From Sphingopyxis sp. LK2115 (GTDB lineage: Bacteria; Pseudomonadota; Alphaproteobacteria; Sphingomonadales; Sphingomonadaceae), in NCBI RefSeq assembly GCF_014595975.1, contig NZ_JABWGQ010000056.1, positions 124,001 to 188,000 of the forward strand: DNA of 64,000 nucleotides. Reading direction: 5' to 3'. The position numbers and the translations under genes were made by a program. The first letter of the stretch is position 1; each line of letters begins with the position of its first letter. Shown one piece after another: positions 2,467-33,628 of the stretch. The notes beneath the pieces are model-generated. The model did no database searches, was not told the origin of the DNA, and saw only the letters and a list, made by a program, of their open reading frames with translations.

Positions 2467-2470
2467 GGGG

Positions 2471-3142: not shown

Positions 3143-3383
3143 AGGTCCAATGCGAGCAATGGCAACATGTCGCCTAATACATAGGCGATACGTTGTCCTG
3201 TTTCAAATGGCCATGGTCGCTGGCGTCCGGCGCGTCAATGATTTCGGCCCCAGCGGGCGCCCCTGTGGCGCACCATTGTGCTCTTGAACCGTCGCTGCTA
3301 AGCGCCGGCGCAACCGTTCGCCGCGGTCCCGATACGGCTCGCGGCATTGGCAGTCCCTATTTTTCATTGAAAGCATTCCCATC

Positions 3384-3902: not shown

Positions 3903-3929
3903 ACCCGGCATCGGGAGCGGACCAACGCA

Positions 3930-13312: not shown

Positions 13313-14404
13313 ATGGACATGGATTTTTCGCGGCTTCAGGCGTCGAGCAAGATCGGCGAGGACTGGGTCTATCCGCAGCCGCCGTGCCTTAATTTCGGGT
13401 GGCTGGAGGTCGATCGCGATCCCGCGCACCGCCTTTACTGGGAGGAATATGGCAATCCCGCGGGCGAGCCGGTGATGGTTCTGCACGGCGGCCCCGGCGG
13501 CGCGTGCGCGCCGGTGATGGCGCGATTTTTCGATCCTCGGCGATACCGCGTCATCCTGTTCGACCAGCGCGGGTGCGGCAAGAGCGAACCCAATGTCGCC
13601 TCGGCCGGCCCGGCGGTCGCACTGGCGAAGAACAGCACCGCCGACTTGATCGGCGACATTGAAAAATTGCGCGATCATCTGGCGATTACGGGGCCGATGC
13701 ACGTTTTTGGCGGCAGCTGGGGCAGCACGCTCGCCATGGCCTATGCGATCGAGCATCCCGCGCATTGCGCCAGCCTGATCCTGCGCGGCATCTTCCTGGG
13801 GGCGGCGGAGGATCTGCGCTATCTTTATCAGGGCAATGCCGCGACGTGGGAGGACGACCCGTTCGGGATGACCGCGCCCGGCGCCTATATCAAATATCCC
13901 GAGGAGTGGGCGGCGCTGCTGTCGGTGCTGACGCCCGACGAGCGGCGCGACGTGATGCGATCGTACAAGGCGATTTTCGACATGGTCCCCGCGACCGCCG
14001 CCGAGAAGGAACGGCAGCTGAACGCCGCGCTTACCTGGTCGCTGTGGGAAGGGGTGATTTCCAACATGATCCCCGAAAGCGCCGACACGGGCAAGTTCGG
14101 CGAGGCCGATTTCGCACTATGCTTTGCACAGATCGAGGCGCATTATTTCGCGAACGACCTGTTCCTGCCCGCGGGGCATTTTTTCGACCATATCGACGTG
14201 CTGGCGTCGATCCCCATCCATATCGTTCACGGCCGTTTCGACGAAGTCTGCCCGCTGACGCAGGCATCGCGGCTGGTCGCGGCGCTCTGCGCAGCGGGGG
14301 CGGCGCCGGTGTCCTATGTAGTCACCAACGCGGGGCATAGCGCGATGGAGCGCGAGAATGCGCTGGCGCTGACGGCGGTGATGGATGGGCTGGCAGCCAT
14401 ATGA
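13313..14404 (+). CDS. pip: Prolyl iminopeptidase
   Basis: A 363-residue alpha/beta hydrolase of peptidase family S33 that removes N-terminal proline from peptides. Family motifs are VLHGGPGGACAPVMARFFDP (oxyanion region), DQRGCGKSEPN, and the nucleophile elbow GGSWGSTLAMAYA. The acid and histidine are in HGRFDEVCP and NAGHSAME. Length is slightly above the usual 315-330. The stop codon lies about 38 bp before the left end of the IS1595-family transposon, so insertion occurred just downstream and left the gene intact. Confidence 0.94.
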   Translation: MDMDFSRLQASSKIGEDWVYPQPPCLNFGWLEVDRDPAHRLYWEEYGNPAGEPVMVLHGGPGGACAPVMARFFDPRRYRVILFDQRGCGKSEPNVASAGPAVALAKNSTADLIGDIEKLRDHLAITGPMHVFGGSWGSTLAMAYAIEHPAHCASLILRGIFLGAAEDLRYLYQGNAATWEDDPFGMTAPGAYIKYPEEWAALLSVLTPDERRDVMRSYKAIFDMVPATAAEKERQLNAALTWSLWEGVISNMIPESADTGKFGEADFALCFAQIEAHYFANDLFLPAGHFFDHIDVLASIPIHIVHGRFDEVCPLTQASRLVAALCAAGAAPVSYVVTNAGHSAMERENALALTAVMDGLAAI

Positions 14405-14454
14405 TAACCATATAGGTTATTTTTGTTGACATCGCGACGCTGATGTGGCACAAG

Positions 14455-14482
14455 TGTGGCGTTTATGTACTTTGCAAACCCA
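14455..14482 (+). repeat. Left terminal inverted repeat core
   Basis: 28 bases that match the reverse complement of 16838-16865 at 26 positions; the shared core includes TGTGGCGTTTATGTA and CAAACCCA. It lies 42 bp upstream of the transposase start, so it may overlap the transposase promoter. Confidence 0.85.
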
Positions 14483-14524
14483 GGCCGACATGATAGATAA
14501 TGCTCATCAACGGAGCGTTTCACC

Positions 14525-15499
14525 ATGTCGGTTCTATCGTCCCCCTATTTCCACGACGAAGCTAAGGCTTTCGAGCATTTGGAAAGCATTGTCTGGGCTG
14601 GCGGCGTAGTCTGCCCGCACTGTGGAACGGTGGGCGGTCGCGTTTATGATCTGTCGAATGTGCGCGGCAAGCCGACATTGAAAAGCCCCGATGGCGCTGT
14701 TCGTCATGGCCTGAAAAAATGTGGCGAGTGCCGCAAGCAGTTCACGGTCAAGGTCGGCACTGTATTCGAACATGCCCGCATGCCGCTGCACAAAATGCTA
14801 CAAGCCGTTCACCTGATTGCGTCCAGCAAGAAGGGTATCAGCGCCCACCAGCTTAGCCGCGTCTTAGAGGTCCAGTATAAGACCGCATGGTTTCTGGCGC
14901 ACCGCATTCGTGAAGCTATGCGCTCTGGCGATCTGGCGCAGCCGTTCGGTTCGGGCGGCGGCGCGGTTGAGGTCGATGAAACCTATTTCGGCACCAAGGA
15001 AGGCCGTCGCGGCGCAAAAGCTGGCACGGCGCACAAGTTCGGTGTGCTGGCGCTGGTTGACCGCAAGACCGGCACCATGCGTTCGTTCACGTTCGACAAG
15101 TTCCGCGCGGACGAAGTGCATCCTATTGTGCTGGATAACATTGCCCGTGAAGCCCGTCTAATGACGGACGAAGCGCGCATGTATAGCAAGATTGGCAAGC
15201 AATTTGCCGAGCATGGCACCACGCTGCACGGCGCGCGCCAGTATGTCGATTACAAGGACCGCACCATTCACACGAACACCGTTGAGGGCGCTTTCTCGAT
15301 CTTCAAGCGCGGCATGAAGGGCGTCTATCAGCATTGCGGTGAACAGCACCTGCACCGCTATCTGGCCGAGTTCGAGTTTCGCTATAACACTCGACAGGCC
15401 AACGGCATTGATGATCGTGGTCGGGCTGTTGCAGCCGTGCGCGGGATTGTCGGTAAGCGTCTTACGTACCGGCGGATTGACGACGAAGCCGTTGCGTAA
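14525..15499 (+). CDS. IS1595-family (ISXO2-like) transposase
   Basis: A 324-residue DDE-type transposase. An N-terminal zinc ribbon has C30-x2-C33 and C66-x2-C69. A helix-turn-helix-like segment follows (GISAHQLSRVLEVQYKTAWFLAHRIR, about 104-129, of which ISAHQLSRVL is most typical). The catalytic core has VEVDETYFG (Asp151), MTDEARMY (Asp215) and HTNTVEGAFS (residues 249-258), where the Asn/Glu are conserved in this family. The length and motifs are complete, so it may be active. It starts at the ATG after CAACGGAGCG. Confidence 0.95.
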   Translation: MSVLSSPYFHDEAKAFEHLESIVWAGGVVCPHCGTVGGRVYDLSNVRGKPTLKSPDGAVRHGLKKCGECRKQFTVKVGTVFEHARMPLHKMLQAVHLIASSKKGISAHQLSRVLEVQYKTAWFLAHRIREAMRSGDLAQPFGSGGGAVEVDETYFGTKEGRRGAKAGTAHKFGVLALVDRKTGTMRSFTFDKFRADEVHPIVLDNIAREARLMTDEARMYSKIGKQFAEHGTTLHGARQYVDYKDRTIHTNTVEGAFSIFKRGMKGVYQHCGEQHLHRYLAEFEFRYNTRQANGIDDRGRAVAAVRGIVGKRLTYRRIDDEAVA

Positions 15500-15683
15500 G
15501 GCCGATAAAACGACTCAACCTCAACAGCTTAGCTTTAAGTTTATGGAATCGCAGGAAAAACCTTGATTCCATTGACCTTTCTGGATAATATAGTCTCCGG
15601 TGGTGGGTCAGATGTCGGGTCGTTGGTTTTATTCCAGCGGCAATCACTGACACGCTTGATAGGAAGATAGTTGGGCTCAATGG

Positions 15684-16571
15684 TCAGTCGTTGAACGCTT
15701 CTGGACACCACCACTGTGACGGGTAGCCGTAGTGCCGAAAAATTGCTGCTTGATCGGGGTCTAGTTTTGCCTTCCTCATGCTCGGCATTAGCTTCACCCC
15801 GAAGCCAGAAATCTGGCCGCGTTTTTTGTCCGGCTCTCGCGCCATTCGTGGCTTCAAGATTTTGGCGAATGTCGGATCGCAGGCGCCAGTATCGTGTTTG
15901 TCGCAGGCCTTGAAGAACGCGCTCGCCACGACGTCCGCAAGCTGCAAGCCTTCACGTTCTAGGTGCGGATAGATGTAGAGCAACGCAGGATCCATAACGT
16001 CCCACGCGATGCGCCCCCAAGGAAGGAATGGGTTGTGCTTTTTCAGCTTCATCCACTCGTAGTAGGCGTGCATTTGGGAGTAGCTGAGTCCGCCTCTGGC
16101 GCTGTATTCGATGCGAAGCTTTTTCGCCTCACCATAATTTGCAAGTGACTTATCGAGCACGAACTTGGACACGCGCTCTAGAAGAAGACGGGTCATCCAG
16201 CAGTAGAACCAATTGCGGGATGGTATCTTTCCGGCGAACGGGTTGGTGTAGCCTTCCATGTTCTTCTTGTTGGATGCGACGACGAAATATCGAGCGTCGA
16301 GGTCCGCCATCATCTCACAGGCGCGCTTGCGCTTTGCGGGGTTCAGTCCTGAGAAATGGATATCGCTGCGCTGATGGTTACGGAACTCGGCTTTTATCTG
16401 CTCCGTCCATTCCGCAACCTTGCTTTGATTGTCGGCACGGATGACGACAGCGGACAGTATAAGCCATTCACTTGATCCAGGGCGAGAGAGGGGCTTCACG
16501 GCCTTTAAGCCATCGTCGCCCGCTTCATCGATATATGCTACGTAGTGATATTCAGGAGGATTGTTCGACAT
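15684..16571 (-). CDS. DUF3800 protein, transposon passenger
   Basis: A 295-residue protein with the DUF3800 hallmark near the N-terminus, AYIDEAGDDG (residues 12-21), an acidic strand like that of RNase H-fold enzymes. Further conserved points are DIHFSGL, RIEYSARGG and, near the C-terminus, a LQLADVVASAF segment, which carries the last acidic residue of the fold. The biochemical activity of DUF3800 is not established; a nuclease-like fold is an inference. It is found on mobile elements and near defence genes. It is encoded convergently to the transposase inside the inverted repeats, and its ATG overlaps the ATG of the small plus-strand gene at a shared CATG. Confidence 0.87.
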   Translation of the reverse strand: MSNNPPEYHYVAYIDEAGDDGLKAVKPLSRPGSSEWLILSAVVIRADNQSKVAEWTEQIKAEFRNHQRSDIHFSGLNPAKRKRACEMMADLDARYFVVASNKKNMEGYTNPFAGKIPSRNWFYCWMTRLLLERVSKFVLDKSLANYGEAKKLRIEYSARGGLSYSQMHAYYEWMKLKKHNPFLPWGRIAWDVMDPALLYIYPHLEREGLQLADVVASAFFKACDKHDTGACDPTFAKILKPRMAREPDKKRGQISGFGVKLMPSMRKAKLDPDQAAIFRHYGYPSQWWCPEAFND

Positions 16572-16731
16572 GGCCGAGAAAACAGCACCGACAGAGCTTG
16601 GGAGTCAAAGTAAAAAGTTCATCGACGCTGCGCGGGAACTCGAAACCGACGACGATCCCAAACGCTTTGATGAGCGGCTGGGCAAGCTGGTGAAACACAA
16701 GCCCGTTGAGCCGCCCAAACAGCAAAAATAA
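16570..16731 (+). CDS. 53-residue charged protein, transposon passenger
   Basis: A short gene with an excellent ribosome binding site: AGGAGGA at 16554-16560, 9 nt before the ATG at 16570. The product is soluble and highly charged, beginning MAEKTAPTELGSQSKK, with an acidic ETDDDPKRFDE centre and a basic C-terminal KLVKHKPVEPPKQQK. I do not recognise a family function. It is divergent from the DUF3800 gene and the two start codons overlap in CATG. The pair could be a regulated two-gene unit (for example an accessory and its modulator), but this is inference. Confidence 0.72.
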   Translation: MAEKTAPTELGSQSKKFIDAARELETDDDPKRFDERLGKLVKHKPVEPPKQQK

Positions 16732-16837
16732 CCAAATCAGTAAAACCCGCTTTCCTACAGCGTCACGCTTGATGTAGCGATTCGGGCATCATGGAAAACC
16801 CCGCCCAGAGCGGAAGCGGCGGCTATGTCTGGATTTG

Positions 16838-16865
16838 TGGGTTTGTAAACTACATAAACGCCACA
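16838..16865 (-). repeat. Right terminal inverted repeat core
   Basis: The inverted copy of 14455-14482, with two mismatches (a G/C swap and a G/A change). It ends about 80 bp before the small terminase start, so the transposon now provides the sequence immediately upstream of the phage-like cluster. Confidence 0.85.
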
Positions 16866-16946
16866 AGTGTCGCATCATCAAGAATTGCGAGTCGGGCCGG
16901 CGCCTTTCGGGGCGCGCGGCCCGATCGGCGTTTCAGGGAGGCGGCG

Positions 16947-17441
16947 ATGGGACGGATCGGCGGAGCCGGGCAGGGCGACAAGGCCAAAGCGGGCGGCAAG
17001 GCGCGCCCCGACCGCGCGCAGATGGACATTTTCCTGGAGGCGCTGGCCGAATCGTCGAATGTGTCCGCGTCGGCGCGCAAGGCGGGGATCGGCGCCGATG
17101 CCATGTATCGCGAGCGGCGGCGCAACAGCGGCTTTGCCGCGCGCTGGCACGAGGCGCTGTGCGAGGGTTTTGCCCGGCTGGAGGCCGAGCTGCTGGCCGA
17201 GGCGCTGATCGCGCCGACGGGCAATGTAAAGGATGCGACCTTGAAGTCGCGGGCACAGAAATATCGGCTGGGCCTGTCGTTGCTGGCGGCGCATCGCGCG
17301 GCGGTGCGCGGCGCGAAGCTGCCTGGCGTCGGCGACGCCGCGGCGCAGGGGAACGCCAAGGCGCGGCTGACCGCAAAGCTCCATGCGATGCAGGCGCAGG
17401 CCGCGGCCGATCTGCTCACCGATCAGGGCGATGGCGGATGA
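16947..17441 (+). CDS. Small terminase-like protein (GTA g1-like)
   Basis: A 164-residue basic protein. Its N-terminal third looks like a helix-turn-helix DNA-binding region: FLEALAESSNVSASARKAGI then MYRERRRN. The position directly before the large terminase and the 4-bp ATGA overlap with it fit a small terminase, which recognises DNA for packaging. The ATG at 16947 has AGGGAGG 5 nt upstream; the longer in-frame opening starts inside the transposon and is rejected. Any original promoter has been separated from the gene by the IS1595 insertion unless it lies in the 70 bp between them. Confidence 0.8.
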   Translation: MGRIGGAGQGDKAKAGGKARPDRAQMDIFLEALAESSNVSASARKAGIGADAMYRERRRNSGFAARWHEALCEGFARLEAELLAEALIAPTGNVKDATLKSRAQKYRLGLSLLAAHRAAVRGAKLPGVGDAAAQGNAKARLTAKLHAMQAQAAADLLTDQGDGG

Positions 17442-18748
17442 AGCACGCAACCGACTGCGCCGCCGAAACGCGGGCAAAGCTCGACCGCTGGTTGAAGGCG
17501 CTGTCGGGCAGGACGTGCGAGCGGCTGCTCACCGACTGGTCGTGGTGGCGCCGTGCGGATCAATGCCCGCCGGAGGGCGACTGGCATGTGTGGCTGTTGC
17601 TGGCGGGGCGCGGGTTTGGCAAGACGCGCACCGGCGCCGAGTGGGTGCGCGCCTTTGCGGAGGCGACGCCGGGCGCGCGGATCGCGCTGGTCGCGGCATC
17701 GTTGCTCGAGGCGCGGCAGGTGATGGTCGAGGGCGAAAGCGGGTTACTGGCGATCGCGCCCGACGATCGGCGTCCCGATTATGAAAGCAGCCTGCGGCGG
17801 CTGACCTGGCCGAACGGCGCGGTGGCGACGCTTTATTCGGCGGCCGAGCCCGACAGTCTGCGCGGGCCTGAGCATGATGCCGCCTGGTGCGACGAAATCG
17901 CCAAATGGCCGCAGGGCGAGGCGGCGTGGGACAATCTGATGCTGACGATGCGGATCGGCGTGCGGCCGCGGGTGGTCGCGACGACAACCCCGCGCGGGGT
18001 GCCGCTGGTCCGGCGGCTGATCAAGGAAAAGGGGGTGGCCGTGACGCGCGGGCGCACGGAAAGCAACCGGCGCAACCTGTCGGCGCAATGGCTGGCGACG
18101 ATGGACGCCATTTATGGCGGGACGCGGCTGGGACGGCAGGAACTGGACGGCGAGATGCTGGAGGATGTCGAAGGCGCATTGTGGACGCGCGCGCTGGTCG
18201 AGCGGTGCCGGGTCGCGGCGGACAGCATCGGCAAGCCGGTGCGGGTGGTGATCGGGGTCGATCCGCCCGCGACCGCCGGGGGCGATGCGTGCGGGATCAT
18301 CGCCGCCGCCGAGCTGCGTGACGGGCGGCTGGCGGTGGTCGAGGACGCGAGTGTAGCACGGCCGGCGCCGCATGTGTGGGCGCAGGCGGTCGCCGCCGCG
18401 GCGGCGCGCTGGGGCGCCGAGCGCGTGGTCGCCGAAAGCAATATGGGCGGCGAGATGGTCGCGGCGGTGCTGCGCCAGGCCGACATGACGCTGCCCGTCG
18501 TTCCGGTGCGCGCAAGCGCGGGCAAGGTGCGGCGCGCCGAGCCGGTCGCGCTGGCCTATGAGCGGGGGCAGGTGGTTCATGCGGGGGTGTTCGCAAGCCT
18601 GGAGGACCAGCTCTGCGGGTTGCAGGTGGGCGGGGGCTATGCGGGACCAGGGCGCTCGCCCGACCGGGCAGATGCATGCGTGTGGGCGCTGGCGGAGTTG
18701 TTGGAAGGGATGCAGCGGGGGATGGTTGTGGGGGTTCGGCGGGTTTGA
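17438..18748 (+). CDS. Large terminase, GTA g2-like
   Basis: A 436-residue DNA-packaging motor. The ATPase has a Walker A-type loop LLAGRGFGKTRTGAEW (residues 53-68; GRGFGKT at 57-63) and a Walker B-like WCDEIAKW (150-157), then a coupling TTTPRG motif. The C-terminal nuclease begins at VIGVDPPATAGGD (Asp275), with later acidic residues in VVAESNMGGEM and SPDRADACVWAL. The length and sequence style match the terminase of alphaproteobacterial gene transfer agents (terminase_6 type). The start overlaps the small terminase stop. Confidence 0.95.
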   Translation: MKHATDCAAETRAKLDRWLKALSGRTCERLLTDWSWWRRADQCPPEGDWHVWLLLAGRGFGKTRTGAEWVRAFAEATPGARIALVAASLLEARQVMVEGESGLLAIAPDDRRPDYESSLRRLTWPNGAVATLYSAAEPDSLRGPEHDAAWCDEIAKWPQGEAAWDNLMLTMRIGVRPRVVATTTPRGVPLVRRLIKEKGVAVTRGRTESNRRNLSAQWLATMDAIYGGTRLGRQELDGEMLEDVEGALWTRALVERCRVAADSIGKPVRVVIGVDPPATAGGDACGIIAAAELRDGRLAVVEDASVARPAPHVWAQAVAAAAARWGAERVVAESNMGGEMVAAVLRQADMTLPVVPVRASAGKVRRAEPVALAYERGQVVHAGVFASLEDQLCGLQVGGGYAGPGRSPDRADACVWALAELLEGMQRGMVVGVRRV

Positions 18749-18749
18749 G

Positions 18750-18798
18750 ATTATCCTGATGGGATAATTATTCACTTGACGTTAATACAGGATGTCTT
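18750..18798 (+). promoter_or_regulatory. Putative promoter and operator for the NYN gene
   Basis: Just after the terminase stop there is a perfect 7-bp inverted repeat ATTATCC/GGATAAT with a 5-nt spacer (18750-18768). It is followed by TTGACG (18777-18782), 16 bases, and TATCTG (18799 region), a plausible sigma-70-type promoter. The stretch is A+T-rich compared with the packaging genes. It suggests that the NYN gene is expressed separately from the particle operon. Confidence 0.45.
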
Positions 18799-18893
18799 AT
18801 CTGGCGGCTATCAACTTCTTCCCCGTCGGACACGCCGCAAGGCCTCCGGCGGGGTTATTAATTTTGGCCTAGCGAAACTGTTATGTTCATGAC

Positions 18894-19535
18894 ATGTTCC
18901 GTTATATGGCAGACCAGCTACCCCTGATTCGCGCCGTTGCGTTTTTCGACGGACAAAATCTTTTCCACTCTGCGAAGCAGGCGTTTGGATACAGCTGGCC
19001 CAATTTTGATCCAACCCTATTGGCAGAACGAGTTTGCCAAGGCCATGGTTGGCAGTTGCAGCAAACACGCTTTTATACTGGCGTTCCGGATGCGGCAGAC
19101 AAGCCGTTCTGGAATCATTTTTGGGTTGCAAAAGCTGCTCAAATGGCTCGCCAAGGCGTCCATGTTTATACTCGTTCCTTACGCTATCGGAACAAAAAAG
19201 TCAGACTGCCTGATGGTACAGAACACTCATTTCTAGACGGAGATGAGAAGGGGATAGATGTTCGTATCGCGCTAGATGTCATCAGGCTTGCCTTGAAACG
19301 AGAGTTTGACGTGGCGATCCTGTTTTGTCGCGATCAAGATCTTACCGAAGTGGCCGACGAAATTCGGCTGATAGCACAAGAACAAAATCGTTGGATCAAG
19401 GTAGCCTCGGCCTTTCCGGTAAGCCCGACATATCGCGTAAGAGGCATCGACAAGACAGATTGGATCAAGCTCGACCGACAGCTTTACGACCAATGTCTGG
19501 ATAGCCGCGACTATCGTCCAAAGAAGCCTTCCTAA
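18894..19535 (+). CDS. NYN-domain (PIN-like) protein inserted in the particle cluster
   Basis: A 213-residue protein with an NYN-domain layout. AVAFFDGQNLFH near residues 14-25 carries the first acidic residue, followed by DGDEKGIDVRIALDV in the middle and VAILFCRDQDLTEVADEI with the later acidic cluster. NYN domains share the PIN/FLAP metal-dependent nuclease fold and usually act on RNA; the substrate here is unknown. It sits between the large terminase and portal genes, where GTA clusters normally have nothing. Its G+C is clearly lower, and it has its own promoter-like upstream region. An internal ATG at 18906 is a possible alternative start. Confidence 0.85.
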   Translation: MFRYMADQLPLIRAVAFFDGQNLFHSAKQAFGYSWPNFDPTLLAERVCQGHGWQLQQTRFYTGVPDAADKPFWNHFWVAKAAQMARQGVHVYTRSLRYRNKKVRLPDGTEHSFLDGDEKGIDVRIALDVIRLALKREFDVAILFCRDQDLTEVADEIRLIAQEQNRWIKVASAFPVSPTYRVRGIDKTDWIKLDRQLYDQCLDSRDYRPKKPS

Positions 19536-19548
19536 ATAGGAGAATGTC

Positions 19549-20654
19549 ATGAACTGGTTTGGCCGGAAGGCTGCGCAGGGGGCTGCGCGGCCCCAATTGT
19601 CGCGGGTGTATGGGAGCTGGTCGGCGCCTGCGCCGCTGTCGTGGGAAGCGCAGGTGCGCGAGGGGTATCTGGCGAATGCGATCGTGCAGCGATCGGTGCG
19701 GCTGGTCGCCGAGGCGGCGGCGAGTGCGCCGCTGGAGGCGAGCGATCCCGCGCTGCTGGCGCTCGTCGCGGGTCCGTCGGGCGGGCAGGGGCTGGTCGAG
19801 ACGCTGGCGTTGCACCTGCTGCTCCACGGCAATGGATATGTGCAGATTTTGACCGACGGCGCGGGGGCGCCCGCCGAGCTGTTCGCGCTGCGCCCCGAAC
19901 GGGTGACGGTCGAGGCCGACGCGCGCGGGTGGCCGGTTGCCTATCGTTACAAGGCGGGCGGGTCGGCGGCGGTGCTGCCCGCCGAGGATGGCGCGGGGCG
20001 CGTGGCGGTGGTGCATGTGAAGGCGCTGCACCCCCTGGACGATCATTATGGCGCGGGGTGCCTGGGCGCCGCGGCGGGCGCGATCGCGGCGCATAATGCC
20101 GCGGCGAGGTGGAATGCGGCGCTGCTGGAGAATGCGGCGCGGCCGTCGGGGGCGCTGGTGCATGATCCGGGCGACAAGGGGATGCCGTTGTCGGCCGAAC
20201 AGGTCGAGCGGCTGCGCGAGGAATTGGCCGAGAGTTTTTCGGGGGCGCGAATGCGGGGCGGCCGTTGCTGCTGGAGGGTGGGCTGAAGTGGCAGCCGCTG
20301 TCGCTGTCGCCCGCCGAGATGGATTTCCTGGCGCTGAAGGAGTCGAGCGCGCGCGAGATTGCGATGAGTTTCGGGGTGCCGCCGATGCTGCTGGGGCTGC
20401 CGGGGGATGCGACCTATGCCAATTACCGCGAGGCCAATCGCGCGCTGTGGCGGCTGACGGTGCTGCCTTTGTGCGCGAAGATTCTGGGGGCGGTCGCGCA
20501 CGGGCTGCGCGGCTGGTTCGACGGCGCCGCGCTGCGCGTCGACCTTAACAAGCTGCCCGCGCTGGCCGAGGACCGGATGGCGCTGTGGCGCGAGGTGTCG
20601 GGCGCCGACTGGCTGAGCGCGGACGAGAAGAAGGCGTTGCTGGGGGTGGCGTAG
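19549..20654 (+). pseudogene. Portal protein gene (GTA g3-like) with a one-base frameshift
   Basis: The first frame (19549-20286) encodes the N-terminal two thirds of an HK97/lambda-type portal. It begins MNWFGRKAAQG, with an AGGAG ribosome binding site, and contains LLHGNGYVQI and VKALHPLDDHYGAG. The rest is in the next frame (up to 20654): LLLEGGLKWQPLS, MSFGVPPMLLGLPGD, ANYREANRALWR. Adding one base near 20250 (GCG CGx AAT GCG) restores the expected ARNAGRPLLLEGG junction and a 368-residue protein. The portal is the dodecameric DNA entry ring, so a real frameshift would stop particle assembly. A sequencing error is equally possible. Confidence 0.88.
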
Positions 20655-20723
20655 CCTTCGCAGGCACCGGCCCACCCCCAACCGGTTTCGCCTGGGCCGC
20701 AAGCGGCCAGGGCCGCGCAACCA

Positions 20724-20749
20724 TCCCCCATCGCAGGGGGAGGGTTTTT
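20724..20749 (+). terminator. Terminator-like hairpin between portal and g3.5-like genes
   Basis: A 6-bp stem TCCCCC/GGGGGA with a 6-nt loop, followed by GGGTTTTT. Just upstream is a second short palindrome GGCCGC-AA-GCGGCC (20695-20708). The 109-bp gap looks like a sphingomonad intergenic repeat. It may lower read-through into the downstream genes, or act only as an RNA-stabilising structure. Confidence 0.5.
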
Positions 20750-20763
20750 GTGAGGACAGCGAC

Positions 20764-21081
20764 ATGGATGAAGACGAGGCGCTGGCGCGGTTGATCGCGC
20801 TGGCGGGAACGAGTGCGTCCGGGGCGCCCGATGCGGCCTTGCTGCGCGCGGTGGTCGAGGAGGCGAGCGAACTGGGCGCGCGGCGGGCGCTGGCGCGGCT
20901 GGGGCTGGCCGATGCAGCGGCGCGCGCCGACATGGCGGACCTGCGGCAACTGCTGGGCGCGTGGCGCGATGCGAAGCGGAGCGCGTGGAAAGCGACCGTC
21001 GACTGGGCGGTGCGCGGGATGCTGGCGCTGCTGATCGTCGGGCTGGCGGTGAAGCTGGGGTTGCCGGGGCTCTTGCGGTGA
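20764..21081 (+). CDS. DUF6127-like small protein (GTA g3.5-like)
   Basis: A 105-residue protein with an N-terminal helical part (DEDEALARLIAL, then LGARRALARLGLAD) and one C-terminal membrane span (about residues 80-101, LALLIVGLAVKLGL). The DLRQLLGAWRDAK stretch is typical of the small proteins encoded between portal and prohead protease in GTA clusters. The role is unknown. Its stop overlaps the GTG start of the protease gene (GTGA), so the two are probably translationally coupled. Confidence 0.75.
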   Translation: MDEDEALARLIALAGTSASGAPDAALLRAVVEEASELGARRALARLGLADAAARADMADLRQLLGAWRDAKRSAWKATVDWAVRGMLALLIVGLAVKLGLPGLLR

Positions 21082-21569
21082 GGGGGGCGTTGCCGACTTT
21101 TTCTTTCGCTGCGGCTTCTGCGCCTCGGCGCGAACAATCCGCAGTCCGCTTTGCCGGCTATGCCGCGGTGTTCGATCGCGTCGATCGCGGCGGCGACGTT
21201 GTGCGCGCCGGGGCCTTTGCGGCGAGTTTGCGCGAAGGGCGGGCGGTGCCGTTGCTGTGGCAGCATCGGCCGGGGGCGGTTGTCGGCGTCGTCGAGGCTT
21301 TGGCGGAGGACCGGCGCGGGCTGCGCGTCGTGGCGCGCCTGACGCATCCGACCGCGGCGGCGCTGGTCGCGCGCGGGGCGCTGACCGGGCTGAGCTTTGG
21401 CTATCGGGTGCGCGCGGCGCGCGGCGCGCGGCCGCGCGAGCTGCTGGCGCTCGATCTGGCGGAAGTGAGTCTGGTTGCGGTGCCGATGCAGCCGCTGGCG
21501 CGGGTGATCGCGGTATCGCCTCCTTTCGCCGGGATGACCGGGAAAAAGGATTGCGATGGATTTCTTTGA
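21078..21569 (+). CDS. HK97-family prohead protease (GTA g4-like)
   Basis: A 163-residue capsid maturation protease. The fold is recognisable from FAGYAAVFDRVDRGGDVVRAGAF near the start (of which GDVVRAGAF is most typical), LLWQHRP with the catalytic histidine, and LTGLSFGYRV with the catalytic serine. It should trim the N-terminal scaffold region of the major capsid protein. The GTG at 21078 overlaps the previous stop; longer openings overlap the g3.5-like gene. The frame ends 13 bp before the preferred capsid start. Confidence 0.9.
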   Translation: MRGALPTFSFAAASAPRREQSAVRFAGYAAVFDRVDRGGDVVRAGAFAASLREGRAVPLLWQHRPGAVVGVVEALAEDRRGLRVVARLTHPTAAALVARGALTGLSFGYRVRAARGARPRELLALDLAEVSLVAVPMQPLARVIAVSPPFAGMTGKKDCDGFL

Positions 21570-21582
21570 AGGAGTGACGGGC

Positions 21583-22725
21583 ATGGAAATGGATATGGAA
21601 GTGAAGGCCGATGCGCTGGACGGCGCATTCGATGCGGTGCTGGCGGCGGAGGCAGTCGACGATCTGAAGGCGTCGCTGGCGGCGCTGAAGGCACAGGTCG
21701 ATGCCCAGGCGGTCGCGGCGGCACGGTTGCCGCTCGACGGGGCGAAGGCCGCCGATCCGGCGCGCGATGCCTTTGTCGAGCGCTATTTGCGGCGCGGCAT
21801 CGATGCGGGGGTCGAGATGAAGAGCCTGTCGGGGGCAAGTGGAGCCGAGGGCGGCTATGCGGTGCCGCGCGAGATCGACACCAGCATCGCCGCGACGCTG
21901 AAGGCGCTGTCGCCGATCCGCAGCATCGCGACCGTCGTGCAGACGGGGACGAGCGGATACCGCAAGCTGGTCGCGACGGGCACGACGGGCGCGGGCTGGG
22001 TCGGTGAGAGTGACGCGCGACCCGGAACGGCGACGCGCAGCTTTGCCGAAATCGCACCCCCGTCGGGCGAGCTTTACGCCAATCCGGCGGCAAGCCAGGC
22101 GATGCTTGACGATGCGATGTTCAACGTCGAGGACTGGCTGGCCGACGAGATCGGCCGCGAGTTCGCGGTCGCCGAGGGGGCGGCGTTCGTGAACGGCAAC
22201 GGCATCAACCGCCCCAAGGGCTTTTTGACCTATGCGACGAACGACGAGGGCGACGGTGCGCGCGCCTTTGGCACCTTGCAGCATCTGGCGACGGGCAGCG
22301 CGGGCGCCTTTCCGGCGTCCAACCCGCAGGACAAGCTCGTCGAGCTGGTCCATGCGCTGAAAGCGCCATATCGGCAGGGCGCGGTGTGGGTGATGAACAG
22401 CGACACACTGGCCCGCATTCGCAAGTTCAAGACGGCGGACGGCGCCTTTGTCTGGCAGCCGGGGATGGTCGAGGGACAGGCGGCGAGCCTGCTCGGCTAT
22501 CCGGTCGTCGAGGCCGAGGACATGCCCGATATTGCGGCCGACAGCCTGTCGATCGCTTTCGGCAATTTCCGCGCGGGGTATCTGATCGCCGATCGCGGCG
22601 AGACGCGAATCCTGCGCGATCCGTTCAGCAACAAGCCTTTCGTGCATTTCTATGCAACCAAAAGGGTCGGCGGCGCGATCATCGATTCGCAGGCGATCAA
22701 GCTGATGAAATTCGCCGCCAGCTGA
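21583..22725 (+). CDS. Major capsid protein, HK97 fold (GTA g5-like)
   Basis: A 380-residue shell protein. The first ~85 residues form the helical scaffolding (delta) domain, with a charged coiled-coil (VDDLKASLAALKAQV) that the prohead protease should remove. The mature part starts around GGYAVPREIDTSI and includes IRSIATVVQTGTSGY, FAVAEGAAFVNGNG and the C-terminal YATKRVGGAIIDSQAIKL region (shorter core: VGGAIIDSQA). I prefer the ATG at 21583 because AAGGAG lies 8 nt upstream; an in-frame ATG at 21556 would overlap the protease gene. The gene is followed by strong hairpins. Confidence 0.94.
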   Translation: MEMDMEVKADALDGAFDAVLAAEAVDDLKASLAALKAQVDAQAVAAARLPLDGAKAADPARDAFVERYLRRGIDAGVEMKSLSGASGAEGGYAVPREIDTSIAATLKALSPIRSIATVVQTGTSGYRKLVATGTTGAGWVGESDARPGTATRSFAEIAPPSGELYANPAASQAMLDDAMFNVEDWLADEIGREFAVAEGAAFVNGNGINRPKGFLTYATNDEGDGARAFGTLQHLATGSAGAFPASNPQDKLVELVHALKAPYRQGAVWVMNSDTLARIRKFKTADGAFVWQPGMVEGQAASLLGYPVVEAEDMPDIAADSLSIAFGNFRAGYLIADRGETRILRDPFSNKPFVHFYATKRVGGAIIDSQAIKLMKFAAS

Positions 22726-22750
22726 CCCGATGGCAGCGCAGGCGCGCGAG

Positions 22751-22858
22751 GGCGCCCGGCCCGTCCAATCCTTTCGGGGCGGGCCGGGCGCCAAAGGCCG
22801 GTCGCCATTCGGCCCATGTTGGTGCCTTCCACCCGGTCTGAACGACATGGCGACCGGC
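22751..22858 (+). repeat. Two strong hairpins after the capsid gene
   Basis: The first is a perfect 13-bp G+C stem (22751-22763 with 22780-22792) with a 16-nt loop. The second is a perfect 12-bp inverted repeat (22797-22808 with 22847-22858) with a 38-nt loop, followed by ATTTTGTTT. No long T run follows the first. They could protect the capsid mRNA 3' end or attenuate transcription before the fibre gene. Confidence 0.75.
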
Positions 22859-22901
22859 ATTTTGTTTCCATGCAGATCATATTGGAAAGGATGGCCTTGC
22901 C

Positions 22902-24389
22902 ATGCCGACCCCCTTTTTTGCCGACCTGGTGCGCGAATTGGCGCAGGAGGGCGGCACCGGGCCGCTGACGCCCACCGGCGCGGTGCCCGGCCATCGCCGT
23001 TTCGCGGGCGTGGTGCCGCCCGGCGTGTCATTTCATTATGCCATCGCAGGGATAGTGCATCCCGATGAATGGGAGGTGGGGACCGGCCGGATCGGCGGCG
23101 ACGGTCGGCTGCTGCGCGACGCGGTGGCGGCTTCGTCGGCAGGCGGCGCGCTGGTCGACTTTACGGTCGGCCTCAAGACCATCGCGCTGACGGTGGGCGC
23201 GGACTGGTTCACGGAGAGCGATGCAGAGGCTGCGGCGCTGGCGGCTGAGGTGGCGGGGCTGTCCGACCAGCTGGCGAGCGTGAACGACGCGGTTGCAGGA
23301 AAGCAGCCAATTTCAACCTCGCATGGCAGTGCTGCGACAGGCGAAGCAAGCGACACTGTGACCGTTCGGCGCGGCGGGGGCTGGGTCAACATTCCCCTGT
23401 CGGCGTTGGCGTTTCGCAATGCTGACGGGCGCTATCCGCTGAACGGCGCCCTGGGTGCGGCCGCGGGCAGCGCAGCGGCGCCGTCGATCAGCTTTGCCGC
23501 CGACACCGATACCGGATTCTGGCTTCCCGCCGCCGACAGCATAGGCTTTGTCACTGGCGGAGCAGAACGGATGCGGCTGAGCGCGGCAGGTCATCTGGGC
23601 ATCGGTTTGCTGTCAGGGGCGCCGAGTGTGCGCCTGCATGTCAAGTGGAGCGGCGAAGTCCAGCGGCTTGAAACGACCGCCGGGCGCGGCGGCGGCGCCT
23701 GTTATCAGGGCTTTTACGATCCGTCGGGCGCAAAGGGCTTTTGCGGCTATTCGGCAGGTGACGACGGTTTCGACATCTGGAACGGCCTGACCCACCAGAT
23801 ACGCTTTGCCACCAGCGGCACCTATCGCTGGGCCATTTCGTCAGCGGGCGGTTTTTATCCGATCGCCGACAATGCCTATACGATTGGCGGCAGCGTCAAC
23901 CGGGTCAGCGAAATCTATGCCGTCAATGGCACGATCAACACGTCCGACGCGCGCGAAAAGACATGGCGCGGCGCGCCGACCGCGGCCGAGCTGCGCGCCG
24001 CGCGGCGGATCGCCCGTGAACTCGGCTTTTTCCAGTGGAACGAGGCCATCGCCGAAAAGGGCGCGGACGGGGCGCGGATGCACTTTGGCGTGCGCGCGCA
24101 GGCGGTGTGGGCGATCATGGCCGACGAGGGGCTGATCGAGCCGCTTGCCGAGGGCGAGACGCCGAGCAGCGCCTATGCCTTTCTGTGCTGGGACAGATGG
24201 GATGCGGTGGAGCCGGTCGCGGCGGCGGGCGACGTGCGCGACAAGGAAGGCAGCATCGTCGCCGAAGCGCGCGCGGCGCAGCCCGGTCGCGGCGCCGGAA
24301 GCCGTTTCGGGGTCCGCATCGACCAGCTCGCGCTGTTCCTGATCGCCGCGCAGGAGGCGCGGATCGCGGCGCTGGAGGCGGCAGCGTGA
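22902..24389 (+). CDS. Tail fibre/spike with C-terminal S74 chaperone domain
   Basis: A 495-residue protein. The N-terminal ~100 residues form a putative particle-attachment part. Then comes a helical stretch (ESDAEAAALAAEVAGLSDQL), a middle region with phage-fibre repeats (AADTDTGFWLPAADSIGFVT, LSAAGHLGIG), and a C-terminal intramolecular chaperone domain of peptidase family S74. The S74 signature is INTSDAREK near residues 345-353; the Ser and Lys form the autocleavage dyad in the family. After trimerisation the chaperone is cut off. The gene lies between capsid and connector, an unusual place. The last residues (LIAAQEARIAALEAAA) form a coiled coil. Confidence 0.88.
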   Translation: MPTPFFADLVRELAQEGGTGPLTPTGAVPGHRRFAGVVPPGVSFHYAIAGIVHPDEWEVGTGRIGGDGRLLRDAVAASSAGGALVDFTVGLKTIALTVGADWFTESDAEAAALAAEVAGLSDQLASVNDAVAGKQPISTSHGSAATGEASDTVTVRRGGGWVNIPLSALAFRNADGRYPLNGALGAAAGSAAAPSISFAADTDTGFWLPAADSIGFVTGGAERMRLSAAGHLGIGLLSGAPSVRLHVKWSGEVQRLETTAGRGGGACYQGFYDPSGAKGFCGYSAGDDGFDIWNGLTHQIRFATSGTYRWAISSAGGFYPIADNAYTIGGSVNRVSEIYAVNGTINTSDAREKTWRGAPTAAELRAARRIARELGFFQWNEAIAEKGADGARMHFGVRAQAVWAIMADEGLIEPLAEGETPSSAYAFLCWDRWDAVEPVAAAGDVRDKEGSIVAEARAAQPGRGAGSRFGVRIDQLALFLIAAQEARIAALEAAA

Positions 24390-24541
24390 CCGGTGGAACG
24401 GCACTGGCGGCGCGCGCGATCGGCGATGTCGGCCGACGCGACCTTGCAAGCGAATGGGCGGGACCGGCCCCCGCGGCGCCGCAGACGATGCTGCCGATGC
24501 CGCGCGCGATCGCGCGGCGTGCGACGCCACGCAAACCCTGA
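24386..24541 (+). CDS. 51-residue hypothetical protein, coupled to the fibre gene
   Basis: The GTG start overlaps the fibre stop in GTGA, the same coupling pattern used elsewhere in this cluster. The product is Ala/Arg/Pro-rich (VTGGTALAARAIGD at the start, RAIARRATPRKP at the end) with no recognised domain. It may be a small virion or assembly factor. The main support is position, overlap and lack of any other reading in this gap. Confidence 0.5.
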   Translation: MTGGTALAARAIGDVGRRDLASEWAGPAPAAPQTMLPMPRAIARRATPRKP

Positions 24542-24553
24542 CGGAAAGGGCCG

Positions 24554-24838
24554 ATGATGACGATGATGGTGAAGGATCCGGGCACGCGGATCGATTTCGA
24601 GTTCGACTGGACGGCCGCCTATTCCGACGGGGCGGCCATCGTCGCGAGCGACTGGTCGGTCATCCCGGCCGAGGCGGGGGGCGTGAGCGTGGCGGGCGCG
24701 GCGCACGGCCTGCTGCAAACCACTGTCACGCTGACGGGCGGCGTTGCGGGCCGCCTCTATCGCGTGACCAACCGGGTGACGCTGAGCGATGGACAGATCG
24801 ACGAGCGATCGGTGTCGATGCGGGTGGAGGAGCGATGA
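24554..24838 (+). CDS. Phage fibre-tail adaptor-like small protein
   Basis: A 94-residue beta-rich protein. It shows the pattern seen in small Ig-like phage proteins encoded beside head-tail genes: FEFDWTAAYSDGAAIVASDW near the start and GRLYRVTNRVTLSDGQIDER at the end, where VTN..T.SDG..DERS is the characteristic part. Such proteins are often annotated as fibre-tail adaptors. Its neighbour is the S74 fibre, which fits that role, but the assignment is by resemblance only. The stop overlaps the connector start (ATGA). Confidence 0.65.
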   Translation: MMTMMVKDPGTRIDFEFDWTAAYSDGAAIVASDWSVIPAEAGGVSVAGAAHGLLQTTVTLTGGVAGRLYRVTNRVTLSDGQIDERSVSMRVEER

Positions 24839-25383
24839 TGGCCGAGAGTCCGTTGCCGGGGGAAGCGCCGGTAAGCCTGAACGAAGCGCGCGGCTGGTTA
24901 AGAATGGGCGCGACGGTCGACGATGCGGTGGTGGCGGGGCTGATCCGCGCCGCGACCAATATCTGCGAGGCCTTTATCGGCCAGTGGCTGATCGTGCGCG
25001 CGGTCGAGGAGCGCATACCGATCGACGCCGGCGCGGTCCGACTGGCCGCGCAGCCGGTGACCGGCATCGACAGCCTGGCGCTGCTTGTGCCGGGCGGCGG
25101 GGAAAGGCCGCTGGCCGAGGGCGATTACCGCGTAACCGTCGGCCGCGACGGCAGCACACGCATCGCGGTCGAACGGGCGGACGACGCCGAGCGGCTGCGC
25201 GTCGCCTATCGCGCGGGCATCGCCGATGGGCCGAACGGCGTGCCCGAAGCGATAAGGCAGGGGATATTGCGCATGACGCAGCATCTGCACGACGCGCGCG
25301 ACGGGTCGGGCACCGCCCCGCCCGCCGCCATCGCCGCGCTGTGGCAGCCGTGGCGGCGGCTGACGCTGGGGAGCGGGCGGTGA
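24835..25383 (+). CDS. Head-tail connector (GTA g6-like, gp6 family)
   Basis: A 182-residue protein with the head-tail connector pattern: PVSLNEARGWLRMG near the start, DDAVVAGLIRAATNICEAFIG as the conserved helix, and the C-terminal IRQGILRMTQHLHDAR helix. It forms the adaptor ring beneath the portal. The ATG at 24835 overlaps the previous stop. Its own stop overlaps the GTG of the DUF3168 gene. The separate g7 (stopper) gene found in the Rhodobacter capsulatus GTA is missing between these two genes. Confidence 0.88.
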   Translation: MMAESPLPGEAPVSLNEARGWLRMGATVDDAVVAGLIRAATNICEAFIGQWLIVRAVEERIPIDAGAVRLAAQPVTGIDSLALLVPGGGERPLAEGDYRVTVGRDGSTRIAVERADDAERLRVAYRAGIADGPNGVPEAIRQGILRMTQHLHDARDGSGTAPPAAIAALWQPWRRLTLGSGR

Positions 25384-25772
25384 CGAGCGCCGAGAGCGCG
25401 GTGCGCGCCCGCGCGTTTGACCTGCTGGCACGCGACGAAGCGCTGGCGGGGATTGTCCATGGCGTCTTTGACGGCGCACCCCCGCGCGCGAGCGCGCCTT
25501 TTGTGACGGTCGGCGGCGTCGAGGGGCGCGACTGGGGCACGAAGGATCGCGCCGGGCGCGAGGTTCGGGTGACGCTGGTGCTGGCGGGTGTCGGCGGCAC
25601 GGTGGATGACAGCGCCGCCGACCGCATCGAGCGCGTCGTCGCGACGATGCGGGGGAGGGCGGGCGGCTGGACGATCGTGAGCGCGCGGACGATCCGCACG
25701 CGCCTTGGCTTTGCGCGCGAGGGCGGCTGGCGGCACGAGATGATCGTGCAATGCCGATGTCTTGAGGCCTGA
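25380..25772 (+). CDS. DUF3168 tail-terminator protein (GTA g8-like)
   Basis: A 130-residue protein with the DUF3168 pattern: an N-terminal helix (AVRARAFDLLARDEAL), FVTVGGVEGRDWGTKDR, and the C-terminal RTRLGFAREGGWRHEMIVQCR region. In the GTA particle the homologue is the tail terminator linking connector and tail tube. The start is GTG at 25380, overlapping the connector stop. It is the last gene before an antisense insertion. Confidence 0.86.
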   Translation: MTSAESAVRARAFDLLARDEALAGIVHGVFDGAPPRASAPFVTVGGVEGRDWGTKDRAGREVRVTLVLAGVGGTVDDSAADRIERVVATMRGRAGGWTIVSARTIRTRLGFAREGGWRHEMIVQCRCLEA

Positions 25773-25791
25773 CGATCCGGAAGCGCGTCGG

Positions 25792-26142
25792 TCAGTCGCC
25801 GGGCAGCGTGTTGGTCGCTTTATAATCCTTGAACTTTTCGGTGAAATTCTCGTGATAATCTTCGACCTGCCAGTCGGCGTCGTCGGTCGCGACCTTTTCG
25901 GAATCGCCCGCGGCGCGGCCGAGCGCGATCACCGCCTTGCGAAAGGCGTCGCGTTCGGCCGTGCAGTTTGCCTTGAGCGTCATCACATATTCGGCCTCTT
26001 CGACCTTTGCCTCAAGCGCCCGCTTGAGATCGTCGCGAAGGCATTTGGTGAAAGCGGCGCGTGTCCGGTCGACCGTCGCCGCGGGCGACTGGACCATCAT
26101 GGCCAGAACCAGTGTCGTGATCAGCATCCTGCGACTCCCCAT
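25792..26142 (-). CDS. Secreted hypothetical protein, antisense within the particle cluster
   Basis: A 116-residue protein with a signal peptide (MGSRRMLITTLVLAMMVQSPAA) and a mature part rich in charged residues with two cysteines (KCLRDDLKRAL and LKANCTAERDAF), which could form a disulfide in the periplasm. I recognise no function. It is read against all surrounding genes and lies between g8- and g9-like genes, so it is a cargo gene rather than a particle part. An internal ATG six residues in gives an equally good signal peptide. Confidence 0.65.
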   Translation of the reverse strand: MGSRRMLITTLVLAMMVQSPAATVDRTRAAFTKCLRDDLKRALEAKVEEAEYVMTLKANCTAERDAFRKAVIALGRAAGDSEKVATDDADWQVEDYHENFTEKFKDYKATNTLPGD

Positions 26143-26173
26143 TCCGCACGAATATTTTCAAGGAGGTTAGACG

Positions 26174-26581
26174 ATGGCAATCGAAAATGGGAGCGCTTTT
26201 CTGCTCAAGGTCGGCGACGGCGGCGCTCCGCCGGCCTATCGGACCGTGGCGGGGCTGCGCACGACGCAATTGTCGGTGAACGGCGAGGCGGTGAACGTCA
26301 CCACCAAGGATTCGGGCGGGTGGCGCGAGCTGTTGTCCGGTGCGGGCGTGCGGTCGGTATCGGTGAGCGCCGCGGGCATCTTTACCGGGTCCGACGCCGA
26401 GCTGCGGCTGCGCGGCCATGCGTTGTCGGGCGCGATCGACGATTATGAGCTGAGCTTCGAGAGCGGCGAGCGGCTGCGCGGGCGCTTTCTGGTGACGCGG
26501 CTCGACTATGCCGGCGATTATAATGGCGAGCGCAATTATACGCTGAACCTGGAATCGAGCGGCGCGGTGGTCAGCCTGTGA
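26174..26581 (+). CDS. Major tail protein, TP901-1 family (GTA g9-like)
   Basis: A 135-residue tail tube protein. The conserved parts are NGSAFLLKVG, a TTQLSVNGEAVNVTTKDSGGW loop (key: VNVTTKDS.GWRELL) and the C-terminal RLDYAGDYNGERNYTLNLESSG region. Hexamers of this protein stack to form the tail tube. An AAGGAGG ribosome binding site lies just upstream of the ATG (26159-26165). Its stop overlaps the GTG start of the tail chaperone gene. Confidence 0.92.
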   Translation: MAIENGSAFLLKVGDGGAPPAYRTVAGLRTTQLSVNGEAVNVTTKDSGGWRELLSGAGVRSVSVSAAGIFTGSDAELRLRGHALSGAIDDYELSFESGERLRGRFLVTRLDYAGDYNGERNYTLNLESSGAVVSL

Positions 26582-26904
26582 GCGCGTCGGCAAAGATGGG
26601 CGCGAACGCGCTGCGCGGCGAGGCGGAACTGTGCGTCGCGGGCGCGCGGCTGGTGCTGCGCCCGAGCTTTGCCGCGCTGGTCGCGGCGGAGGCCGAGTTG
26701 GGGCCGTTGTTCGCGCTGGTCGAGCGCGCGGCCGACGGGCGGCTGGCGCTGGGCGAGCTGGCCACGCTGTTCTGGCATTGTGTGAAGGATCGGCCCGACG
26801 CGCTGGCACGCGAGGACGTCGGCGAGGCGGTGGTGGCGCAAGGGCTGGCGGCGGTGACCCCGGCGCTGCGCATCCTGCTGGGGCAGATATTGCAGGGGCG
26901 GTGA
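26578..26904 (+). CDS. GTA tail assembly chaperone (g10-like, GTA_TAC family)
   Basis: A 108-residue protein with the pattern of GTA tail assembly chaperones: RGEAELCVAGARLVLRPSF, AALVAAEAELGPLFALVERA and LATLFWHCVKD. These proteins chaperone the tape measure protein during tail assembly. The GTG at 26578 overlaps the major tail protein stop (GTGA). In other tailed phages two chaperone products come from a frameshift; here they are separate genes. Confidence 0.88.
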   Translation: MSASAKMGANALRGEAELCVAGARLVLRPSFAALVAAEAELGPLFALVERAADGRLALGELATLFWHCVKDRPDALAREDVGEAVVAQGLAAVTPALRILLGQILQGR

Positions 26905-26905
26905 G

Positions 26906-27806: not shown

Positions 27807-27885
27807 GACGAACGCGGGGGCGCACGATCATAAGCCCGTCCCCTGAAGGGGAGGGGGAAGGTTACAAGCTGGAAAGGCGGTTGCG

Positions 27886-31440: not shown

Positions 31441-31441
31441 G

Positions 31442-33619: not shown

Positions 33620-33628
33620 GAGGACAGG

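Follow-up and report, generated by a model that had tools for sequence, protein, structure and literature searches.

IS1595-family insertion sequences are recognised by 8-bp target site duplications (TSDs) and by terminal inverted repeats (TIRs) starting with GG, and members with passenger genes have reportedly been described by Siguier, Gagnevin and Chandler in 2009. Here we describe an element of this family in Sphingopyxis sp. LK2115, found in a stretch of 64,000 nucleotides (contig NZ_JABWGQ010000056.1, positions 124,001 to 188,000; hereafter the window) and inserted upstream of a gene cluster encoding a gene transfer agent (GTA). Like the passenger elements, it combines a transposase of this family, GG-starting TIRs, an 8-bp TSD and extra genes between its ends; what sets it apart is a small gene that is conserved, a slot in which many kinds of defence-type cargo are exchanged, and a constant insertion site ahead of the GTA cluster. 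Tn7-like transposons also favour a chromosomal site, in which they resemble the window element. According to parts of PMC8649781, they likewise consist of a transposon core and variable cargo, including defence and toxin-antitoxin genes. The window element differs in having no TnsABC-type genes, a single small DDE transposase, a size of 2-4 kb and a putative GTA promoter as target. An IS1595 transposon with passengers is a known kind of element; what appears unexpected is the target upstream of a GTA cluster. Literature searches that covered few subscription papers returned no paper pairing IS1595 with DUF3800; three papers mention both IS1595 and gene transfer agents, and in the text portions covered none deals with insertion of IS1595 elements into GTA promoters; no such element was found among the literature matches listed or in parts of PMC9836097 and PMC10883770. 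On the evidence below we consider it likely that this compact cargo transposon, built of a fixed core and exchangeable cargo, selects the putative GTA promoter.

The complete element spans positions 14458-16862 (2405 bp), with ends read directly from the sequence (Table 1). Its TIRs start with GG, differ at two of 25 positions and enclose all three genes, namely those of the transposase (P0001), of a DUF3800 protein (P0002) and of a 53-codon open reading frame (ORF; P0003). Start codons of the latter two overlap by 2 nt on opposite strands. P0001 matches Pfam PF12762 (ISXO2-like DDE domain, 2.2e-33) and PF12760 (IS1595 zinc ribbon, 3.7e-10) as well as NCBIfam NF033547, with 188 bits against a cut-off of 75. 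Transposase domains, GG-starting TIRs and the 8-bp TSD all agree with the IS1595 family. No TnsB/TnsC-type gene is present in the element, the IS1595 transposase being the sole transposition protein matched in Pfam and NCBIfam, and the own genome holds a single copy. The initial annotation, made from the window alone, is thereby confirmed in proposing a cargo-carrying IS1595-family transposon with three genes inside one TIR pair; the extent it gave, 14442-16876, contains the real element and overshoots it by the TSD and a few bases per side.

Relatives are found within the genus and beyond it. Comparison of the element DNA with 98 other genomes yielded a near-complete transposase with 83-85% DNA identity in six genomes of the same genus and a part of the transposase in a seventh (G056). 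In all six, TIRs and perfect TSDs enclose this transposase together with a homologue of the 53-codon gene, and the element has the flanking sequence and orientation seen in the window. Such recurrence, along with the uninterrupted site in 46 of 80 genomes of the genus, speaks against a chance arrangement in the window; G440 and G442 are two further occupied Sphingopyxis genomes. Across the order, the transposase (E<=1e-30) was detected in 82 of 396 genomes, own included, and a profile of the small gene in 33. From 40 transposase loci of this set and the best 80 of 562 named loci of a genome collection, both ends were located for 101 unique elements of 1831-3842 bp (median 2767), with clean ends defined as a TIR of at least 17/25 and a TSD with at most one mismatch.

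The window element sits between a putative promoter and the first gene of an RcGTA-like gene transfer agent. Genes for the HK97 capsid, the TIGR02217 (Rcc01695 family) protein and the TIGR02218 GTA baseplate hub score above NCBIfam cut-offs; megatron (NF048004, 389 versus 800 bits) and portal (76 versus 112 bits) score below them. The flank shared by related elements consists of AACC-N5-GGTT, a short gap, TTGACATCGTnACGCT and then the 8-bp TSD, and variants of the longer repeat ATAACC-N5-GGTTAT occur at most of 24 GTA-site insertions. GTA genes were found in the flank of 24 of 30 unique elements whose transposase is at least 68% identical to that of the window, versus 2 of the 71 elements of lower identity (L088 and L090; Fisher p 1.6e-15); adjacency was scored with window proteins only, and distant GTAs outside Sphingomonadales may escape this scoring. 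The strict promoter motif is present at 22 of the 30, and L145 and L146 have variants of it. In 20 of these 22, the insertion point follows the start of TTGACA at a distance of 31 or 32 bp; the exceptions are L163, which is reversed, and L155, at 49 bp, 17 bp further on. Named hosts of GTA-site elements include Sphingopyxis, Blastomonas, Sphingomonas, Novosphingobium, Erythrobacter, Allopontixanthobacter and a Citromicrobium metagenome-assembled genome (MAG). Even an element of another clade, L088 (2248-5077 of its locus; transposase 57% identical), occupies the same GTA promoter spot, in reverse orientation. These comparisons strongly support a target upstream of the GTA cluster.

Among 13 Sphingopyxis genomes searched, the promoter motif in its Sphingopyxis form has a single match in 10, two matches in two and no match in one; all eight searched genomes of other genera lack it. 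As far as parts of PMC11150451 describe the Caulobacter GTA promoter, likeness extends to a promoter of a GTA cluster with an upstream activator element, a palindrome between -35 and -10 and a long untranslated leader; the sequence of the Sphingomonadales site differs, and the promoter here is putative. Separately, L090 (element 2282-4270), also an IS1595 element, has GTA portal and protease genes as neighbours and seems to lie within the cluster.

A single ancient insertion before the GTA cluster, inherited vertically in Sphingomonadales while cargo was swapped by recombination, would account for the same position and mostly same orientation of these elements, and the eight Sphingopyxis transposases in our tree do form one clade. 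Several observations nevertheless refute it largely and leave it very improbable. Of 80 Sphingopyxis genomes, 53 matched a search pattern for the undivided site; 46 of these sites are uninterrupted, and seven start with the last bases of the element and are therefore occupied. With G000 and G055, occupied but unmatched by this pattern, at least 9 of the 80 genomes carry an insertion, not counting G056, where the right end of a damaged element lies beside the same flank. Three TSD variants exist within the genus, ACAAGTGT, ACAAGTAT and ACATATGT, and in each the two copies are equal. The reversed L163, the displaced L155 and the reversed L088 of a separate lineage are likewise difficult to derive from one event. 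Finally, in 119 of the 120 pairs formed by 16 GTA-site elements with usable large terminase (TerL) sequence, the two transposases resemble each other more closely than the two adjacent TerL proteins do (for example 97% versus 84% and 93% versus 68%).

Since duplications vary with the host and transposases are closer than TerL, the elements seem to move between species and to land at one place. A tree of 100 transposases (L211, which has no ORF, was omitted, and L088 and L090 were left unlabelled) places all 24 GTA-site rows in one clade of 26 with support 100/99. The GTA label changes three times on it (as one gain and two losses would require) versus a mean of 21.8 after shuffling, and none of 500 shuffles was as low. 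Taken together, empty sites, variant duplications, reversed insertion and the contrast of transposase with TerL indicate repeated targeted insertion at the GTA site. Empty sites and 8-bp duplications were precisely what the initial annotation had suggested looking for.

Insertions could also be selected instead of targeted, if separation of the GTA from its promoter spared cells from lethal GTA production. Parts of PMC9765227 and PMC11150451 state that GTA-producing cells lyse or die, the element does separate the putative promoter from the cluster, and three of nine occupied clusters are damaged (that of the window and two lacking much of the cluster). An insertion at any point of promoter or cluster would, however, silence the GTA, whereas 20 elements share a position that varies by no more than 1 bp. 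Moreover, the fetched parts of six of the nine occupied clusters are undamaged, a share similar to that at empty sites (9 of 12); the stretches of G440 and G442 end before the cluster does. We therefore hold selection without targeting to be quite unlikely. Decay of the GTA after insertion was considered and abandoned, as damage in three of nine occupied versus three of 12 empty-site clusters gives no clear sign of it; since these counts are alike, they support neither silencing nor continued use of the GTA. A full-length portal gene is present in six of nine occupied and 10 of 12 empty-site Sphingopyxis clusters. That of the window is split by a frameshift (19549-20286 and 20265-20654), and an ORF that looks NYN-like by eye, with no NCBIfam match, lies between the large terminase and portal genes (18894-19535).

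If repeated targeting explains where these elements sit, their gene content separates into constant and variable parts. A homologue of the small gene (type A) is present in all 30 elements with transposase identity of at least 68%, in the single element at 63-68% and in 43 of 45 at 57-63% (absent from L212 and L088), that is, in 74 of 76 unique elements at or above 57% versus 1 of 25 below. In all 75 elements having it, it lies on the transposase strand. Genomes tell the same: compared by hand, 21 of 33 small-gene genomes have a transposase match beside the gene, and of 11 fetched loci among the other 12, eight show a TIR-like end or a piece of transposase (weak in L247). In five remnants (L240, L241, L242, L244 and L245), the small gene and one TIR-like end persist although no transposase is recognised, which gives the impression that the small gene outlasts the transposase. 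It stands beside other cargo as well, for example BstA in L021 and L023, and L039 has it with no other ORF of at least 100 amino acids outside the transposase. Its distribution marks the 53-codon gene as part of the core of this transposon clade, not as half of a passenger pair; the two extra genes do not form a pair because the small gene follows the transposase and the DUF3800 slot is exchangeable. This part of the initial annotation must be given up. A right end near 15,600, which would have spoken against the proposed unit, was not seen, and the small gene lies between both ends in the elements counted above.

Overlapping divergent start codons, and the fact that DUF3800 is the commonest recognised cargo domain, would suit a two-gene addiction or defence module. 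Joint inheritance expected of a toxin-antitoxin pair was not found, with the small gene in 74 of 76 elements, other cargo included, versus a DUF3800 of P0002 type in 4 of 101; together with L039, this makes such a module rather improbable. The small protein might instead be a general antitoxin or inhibitor that tames many cargo effectors. It is conserved alongside varied toxin-antitoxin-like and defence-like cargo and has an acidic stretch around ELETDDD, but its presence tracks transposase clades, distant clades have other small ORFs, and it matches no toxin-antitoxin family in Pfam, NCBIfam or PADLOC. We regard this role as unlikely. The gene may rather encode an accessory or regulator of transposition. 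P0003 has no match of any kind in Pfam, NCBIfam or PADLOC, and a sequence-profile search of solved structures gave none for the P0002 or P0003 profile. Two other conserved small ORFs were seen by eye in distant IS1595 clades: MPKKKNxET.. directly behind the transposase and DEVLKRMLxTPP.. on the opposite strand (L031, L033, L087 and L099; L093, L103, L105 and L106).

The third gene varies between elements at the same site. L021 carries a DUF3800-like ORF and BstA, L023 BstA, and L025 an ORF that is SocA-like by eye. A scan of 252 ORFs of at least 100 amino acids (120 + 132, counting overlapping and spurious ones) taken from 103 of 104 elements detected DUF3800 in 23 (8 + 15), which makes it the commonest recognised cargo domain, followed by PIN in 11 (3 + 8), SocA_Panacea in seven (4 + 3), and GmrSD_N, PemK (1 + 1), AlbA (1 + 1) and D12 methylase (1 + 1) in two each. 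PADLOC results cover the best 25 of 68 and the best 25 of 53 families, with per-protein results for 10 chosen proteins. Among the matches listed are BstA in three ORFs (2 + 1, best 1.2e-120), PD-Lambda-5 A and B in two ORFs each (1 + 1; L093 holds both genes), PDC-S46 (4.7e-255, L089) and a pAgo model (9.4e-44, L079). P0002-type DUF3800 proteins are encoded in the window element and in three Rhodobacterales elements (L170, L175 and L202), which are 30-45% identical in this protein and whose transposases are about 60% identical to that of the window; the damaged G056 element also has one, 43% identical. Cargo and transposase therefore appear to have separate histories. As far as these comparisons reach, TIRs, transposase and the 53-codon gene are the fixed parts, with the DUF3800 gene as one among many cargos that can be exchanged.

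P0002 is a stand-alone protein of 295 amino acids that matches Pfam PF12686 with 37.3 bits (gathering cut-off 21). Its AlphaFold model, built from nine rows (predicted local distance difference test score, pLDDT, 69; predicted template modelling score, pTM, 0.76), is predicted to adopt an RNase H-like (RNase HII-like) fold. The best structural matches are RNase HII and HIII (best Foldseek E 4.8e-4), and superposition on RNase HII 2dfh gives Z 11.0 and 3.0 A over 156 residues. Residues Y13, D15, E16, H72, L130 and Q210 are invariant across nine aligned rows. The nuclease-like character noted in the initial annotation thus agrees with the predicted fold, and the defence or addiction role it allowed for gains from cargo of relatives that PADLOC recognises as BstA and PD-Lambda-5 genes. 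Because relatives carry DUF3800, PIN, SocA-like, BstA and PD-Lambda-5 cargo, DUF3800 is most likely a defence or toxin-type effector; that P0002 itself is a nuclease effector in defence seems somewhat more probable than other roles. In a Cas12a2-linked CRISPR system, a DUF3800 protein predicted to have an RNase H fold is described in parts of PMC10910872. P0002 shares with that TPR-DUF3800 (TPR, tetratricopeptide repeat) the domain, the predicted fold and a defence context, and differs in having no TPR or CRISPR match and in being stand-alone cargo. A DUF3800-type RNA motif is unsupported, as an Rfam search of 13800-17600 returned nothing at E<=1.

Behind the insertion, about 38 bp (16871-16908, ATGAAGAATTGCGA.. 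in most relatives) are conserved in many Sphingopyxis genomes. They perhaps encode a leader peptide or a regulatory RNA of the GTA; Rfam has nothing for them at E<=1.

Table 1. Features of the element and its surroundings (window coordinates)
Feature	Position	Strand	Basis or remark
ATAACC-N5-GGTTAT inverted repeat, possible activator site	14404..14420	+	seen in window; role putative
TTGACA box and spacer of putative GTA promoter, TTGACATCGCGACGCTGATGTGG	14426..14448	+	promoter role putative
Left TSD copy, ACAAGTGT	14450..14457	.	where -10 box is expected; single copy in empty sites
Left TIR	14458..14482	+	23/25 identical to right TIR
IS1595-family DDE transposase with zinc ribbon (P0001)	14525..15499	+	Pfam, NCBIfam
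Cargo gene: DUF3800 protein (P0002), predicted RNase HII-like fold	15684..16571	-	Pfam, AlphaFold, structural matches
53-codon gene, probable core accessory (P0003), type A small protein	16570..16731	+	profile matches in relatives
Right TIR	16838..16862	-	pairs with left TIR
Right TSD copy, ACAAGTGT	16863..16870	.	identical to left copy
Leader between insertion and first GTA gene	16871..16946	+	first ~38 bp match in many genomes of the genus
RcGTA-like head-tail cluster: terminase, HK97 portal and capsid, tail tube, Rcc01695-family distal tail, GTA baseplate hub, partial megatron	16947..34081	+	NCBIfam; terminase homologues at other sites

Counts depend on how loci were accepted. Twenty of the 80 named loci had no clean ends under our rule and were dropped beforehand. 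A search of these with the TIR consensus placed a right TIR 2.5-3.2 kb from the left one in nine and detected none in 11, of which L191, L192 and L193 had 5 kb of flank and eight had at most 3.1 kb; the dropped locus L148 also adjoins GTA terminase genes. L027, L030, L037, L101, L102 and L108 are outside the 101 elements owing to unclear ends or duplications, L034 and L079 were retained by hand, having TIRs and no matching TSD, and the cargo tally of 104 elements still contains L037, L102 and L108. MAG loci labelled Acidimicrobiales and Verrucomicrobia (L180 and L216) may be contamination. A codon-usage gene caller missed cargo genes, including the small gene of the window, and later tallies use all ORFs of at least 100 amino acids.

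Several points weigh against a targeted transposon with fixed core and defence cargo. Six of the 30 clade members sit elsewhere than at the GTA site, and the -35/-10 reading of the putative promoter was made by eye, with weak -10-like sequences. Three of the 11 fetched small-gene loci without full transposase have no transposon end at all. The model of P0003 is poor (pLDDT 66, pTM 0.36, two predicted helices), and its fold interpretation was dropped for this reason. As to defence, PADLOC gives no family at E<=1 for P0001-P0003, leaving P0002 without a model match, and the elements with PD-Lambda-5 (L093) and PDC-S46 (L089) have more distant transposases (55-56%). Most of the 252 cargo ORFs match nothing and many must be spurious. 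Damaged GTA clusters behind insertions belong here as well; given these and the frameshifted portal gene of the window, readthrough into a working GTA is a proposal only.

For the targeted transposon favoured here, the following mode of action can be proposed. The transposase complex would select the putative GTA promoter by its sequence, by bent DNA, by melted -10 DNA or by a bound GTA regulator, and insertion would duplicate the putative -10 region. With this region duplicated, a whole promoter would remain upstream of the transposase gene and in the same direction, and the transposase gene may be expressed upon GTA induction. Parts of PMC11150451 describe activation of the Caulobacter GTA promoter by GafY and IHF, a proposed GafZ-binding palindrome between -35 and -10, and GafZ as an antiterminator enabling RNA polymerase to read through terminators of the 14-kb cluster. 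By analogy, antitermination could carry transcription through the 2-4 kb transposon, and the GTA cluster, often intact behind the insertion, may be transcribed by readthrough. P0002, as an RNase H-type nuclease, might give the host phage defence or act as a toxin, either of which would favour retention of the transposon.

A more far-reaching possibility, to which we assign a low probability, is that the element exploits the GTA: it would insert at the -10 region of the GTA promoter and so have its transposase and cargo transcribed on induction, stay small enough to be packaged in a capsid of the RcGTA type with room for about 4 kb, be delivered to kin and reinserted in the conserved GTA promoter there, and would repay the host with exchangeable phage defence. 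Heads of RcGTA hold about 4 kb (parts of PMC9662315) and those of CcGTA about 8.3 kb (parts of PMC11150451), and GTA-site elements, which measure 2.25-3.84 kb, would fit. The longest of the 101 elements has 3842 bp, though 92 of the 101 loci had room for at least 5 kb. In 20% of samples drawn from a normal distribution of equal mean and spread, no value exceeds this maximum; the size limit is therefore no evidence on its own, and a cap set by the GTA head gains no support from it, the size distribution giving no sign of a cut-off. If the exploitation were real, a dedicated defence transposon would travel in GTAs and dock at their promoters.

The finding ties together transposons, phage defence and GTAs. 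If targeting is true, evolution has given a small DDE transposon the GTA control region as its unique chromosomal target, which it uses as a dock for interchangeable defence genes, and the question who gains from GTAs would become directly testable. The cargo of about 100 elements, most of whose ORFs have no known domain, would represent a compact catalogue of candidate defence genes, and DUF3800 would acquire a function by guilt-by-association. Such targeting would further suggest a site-directed minimal transposase of about 320 residues.

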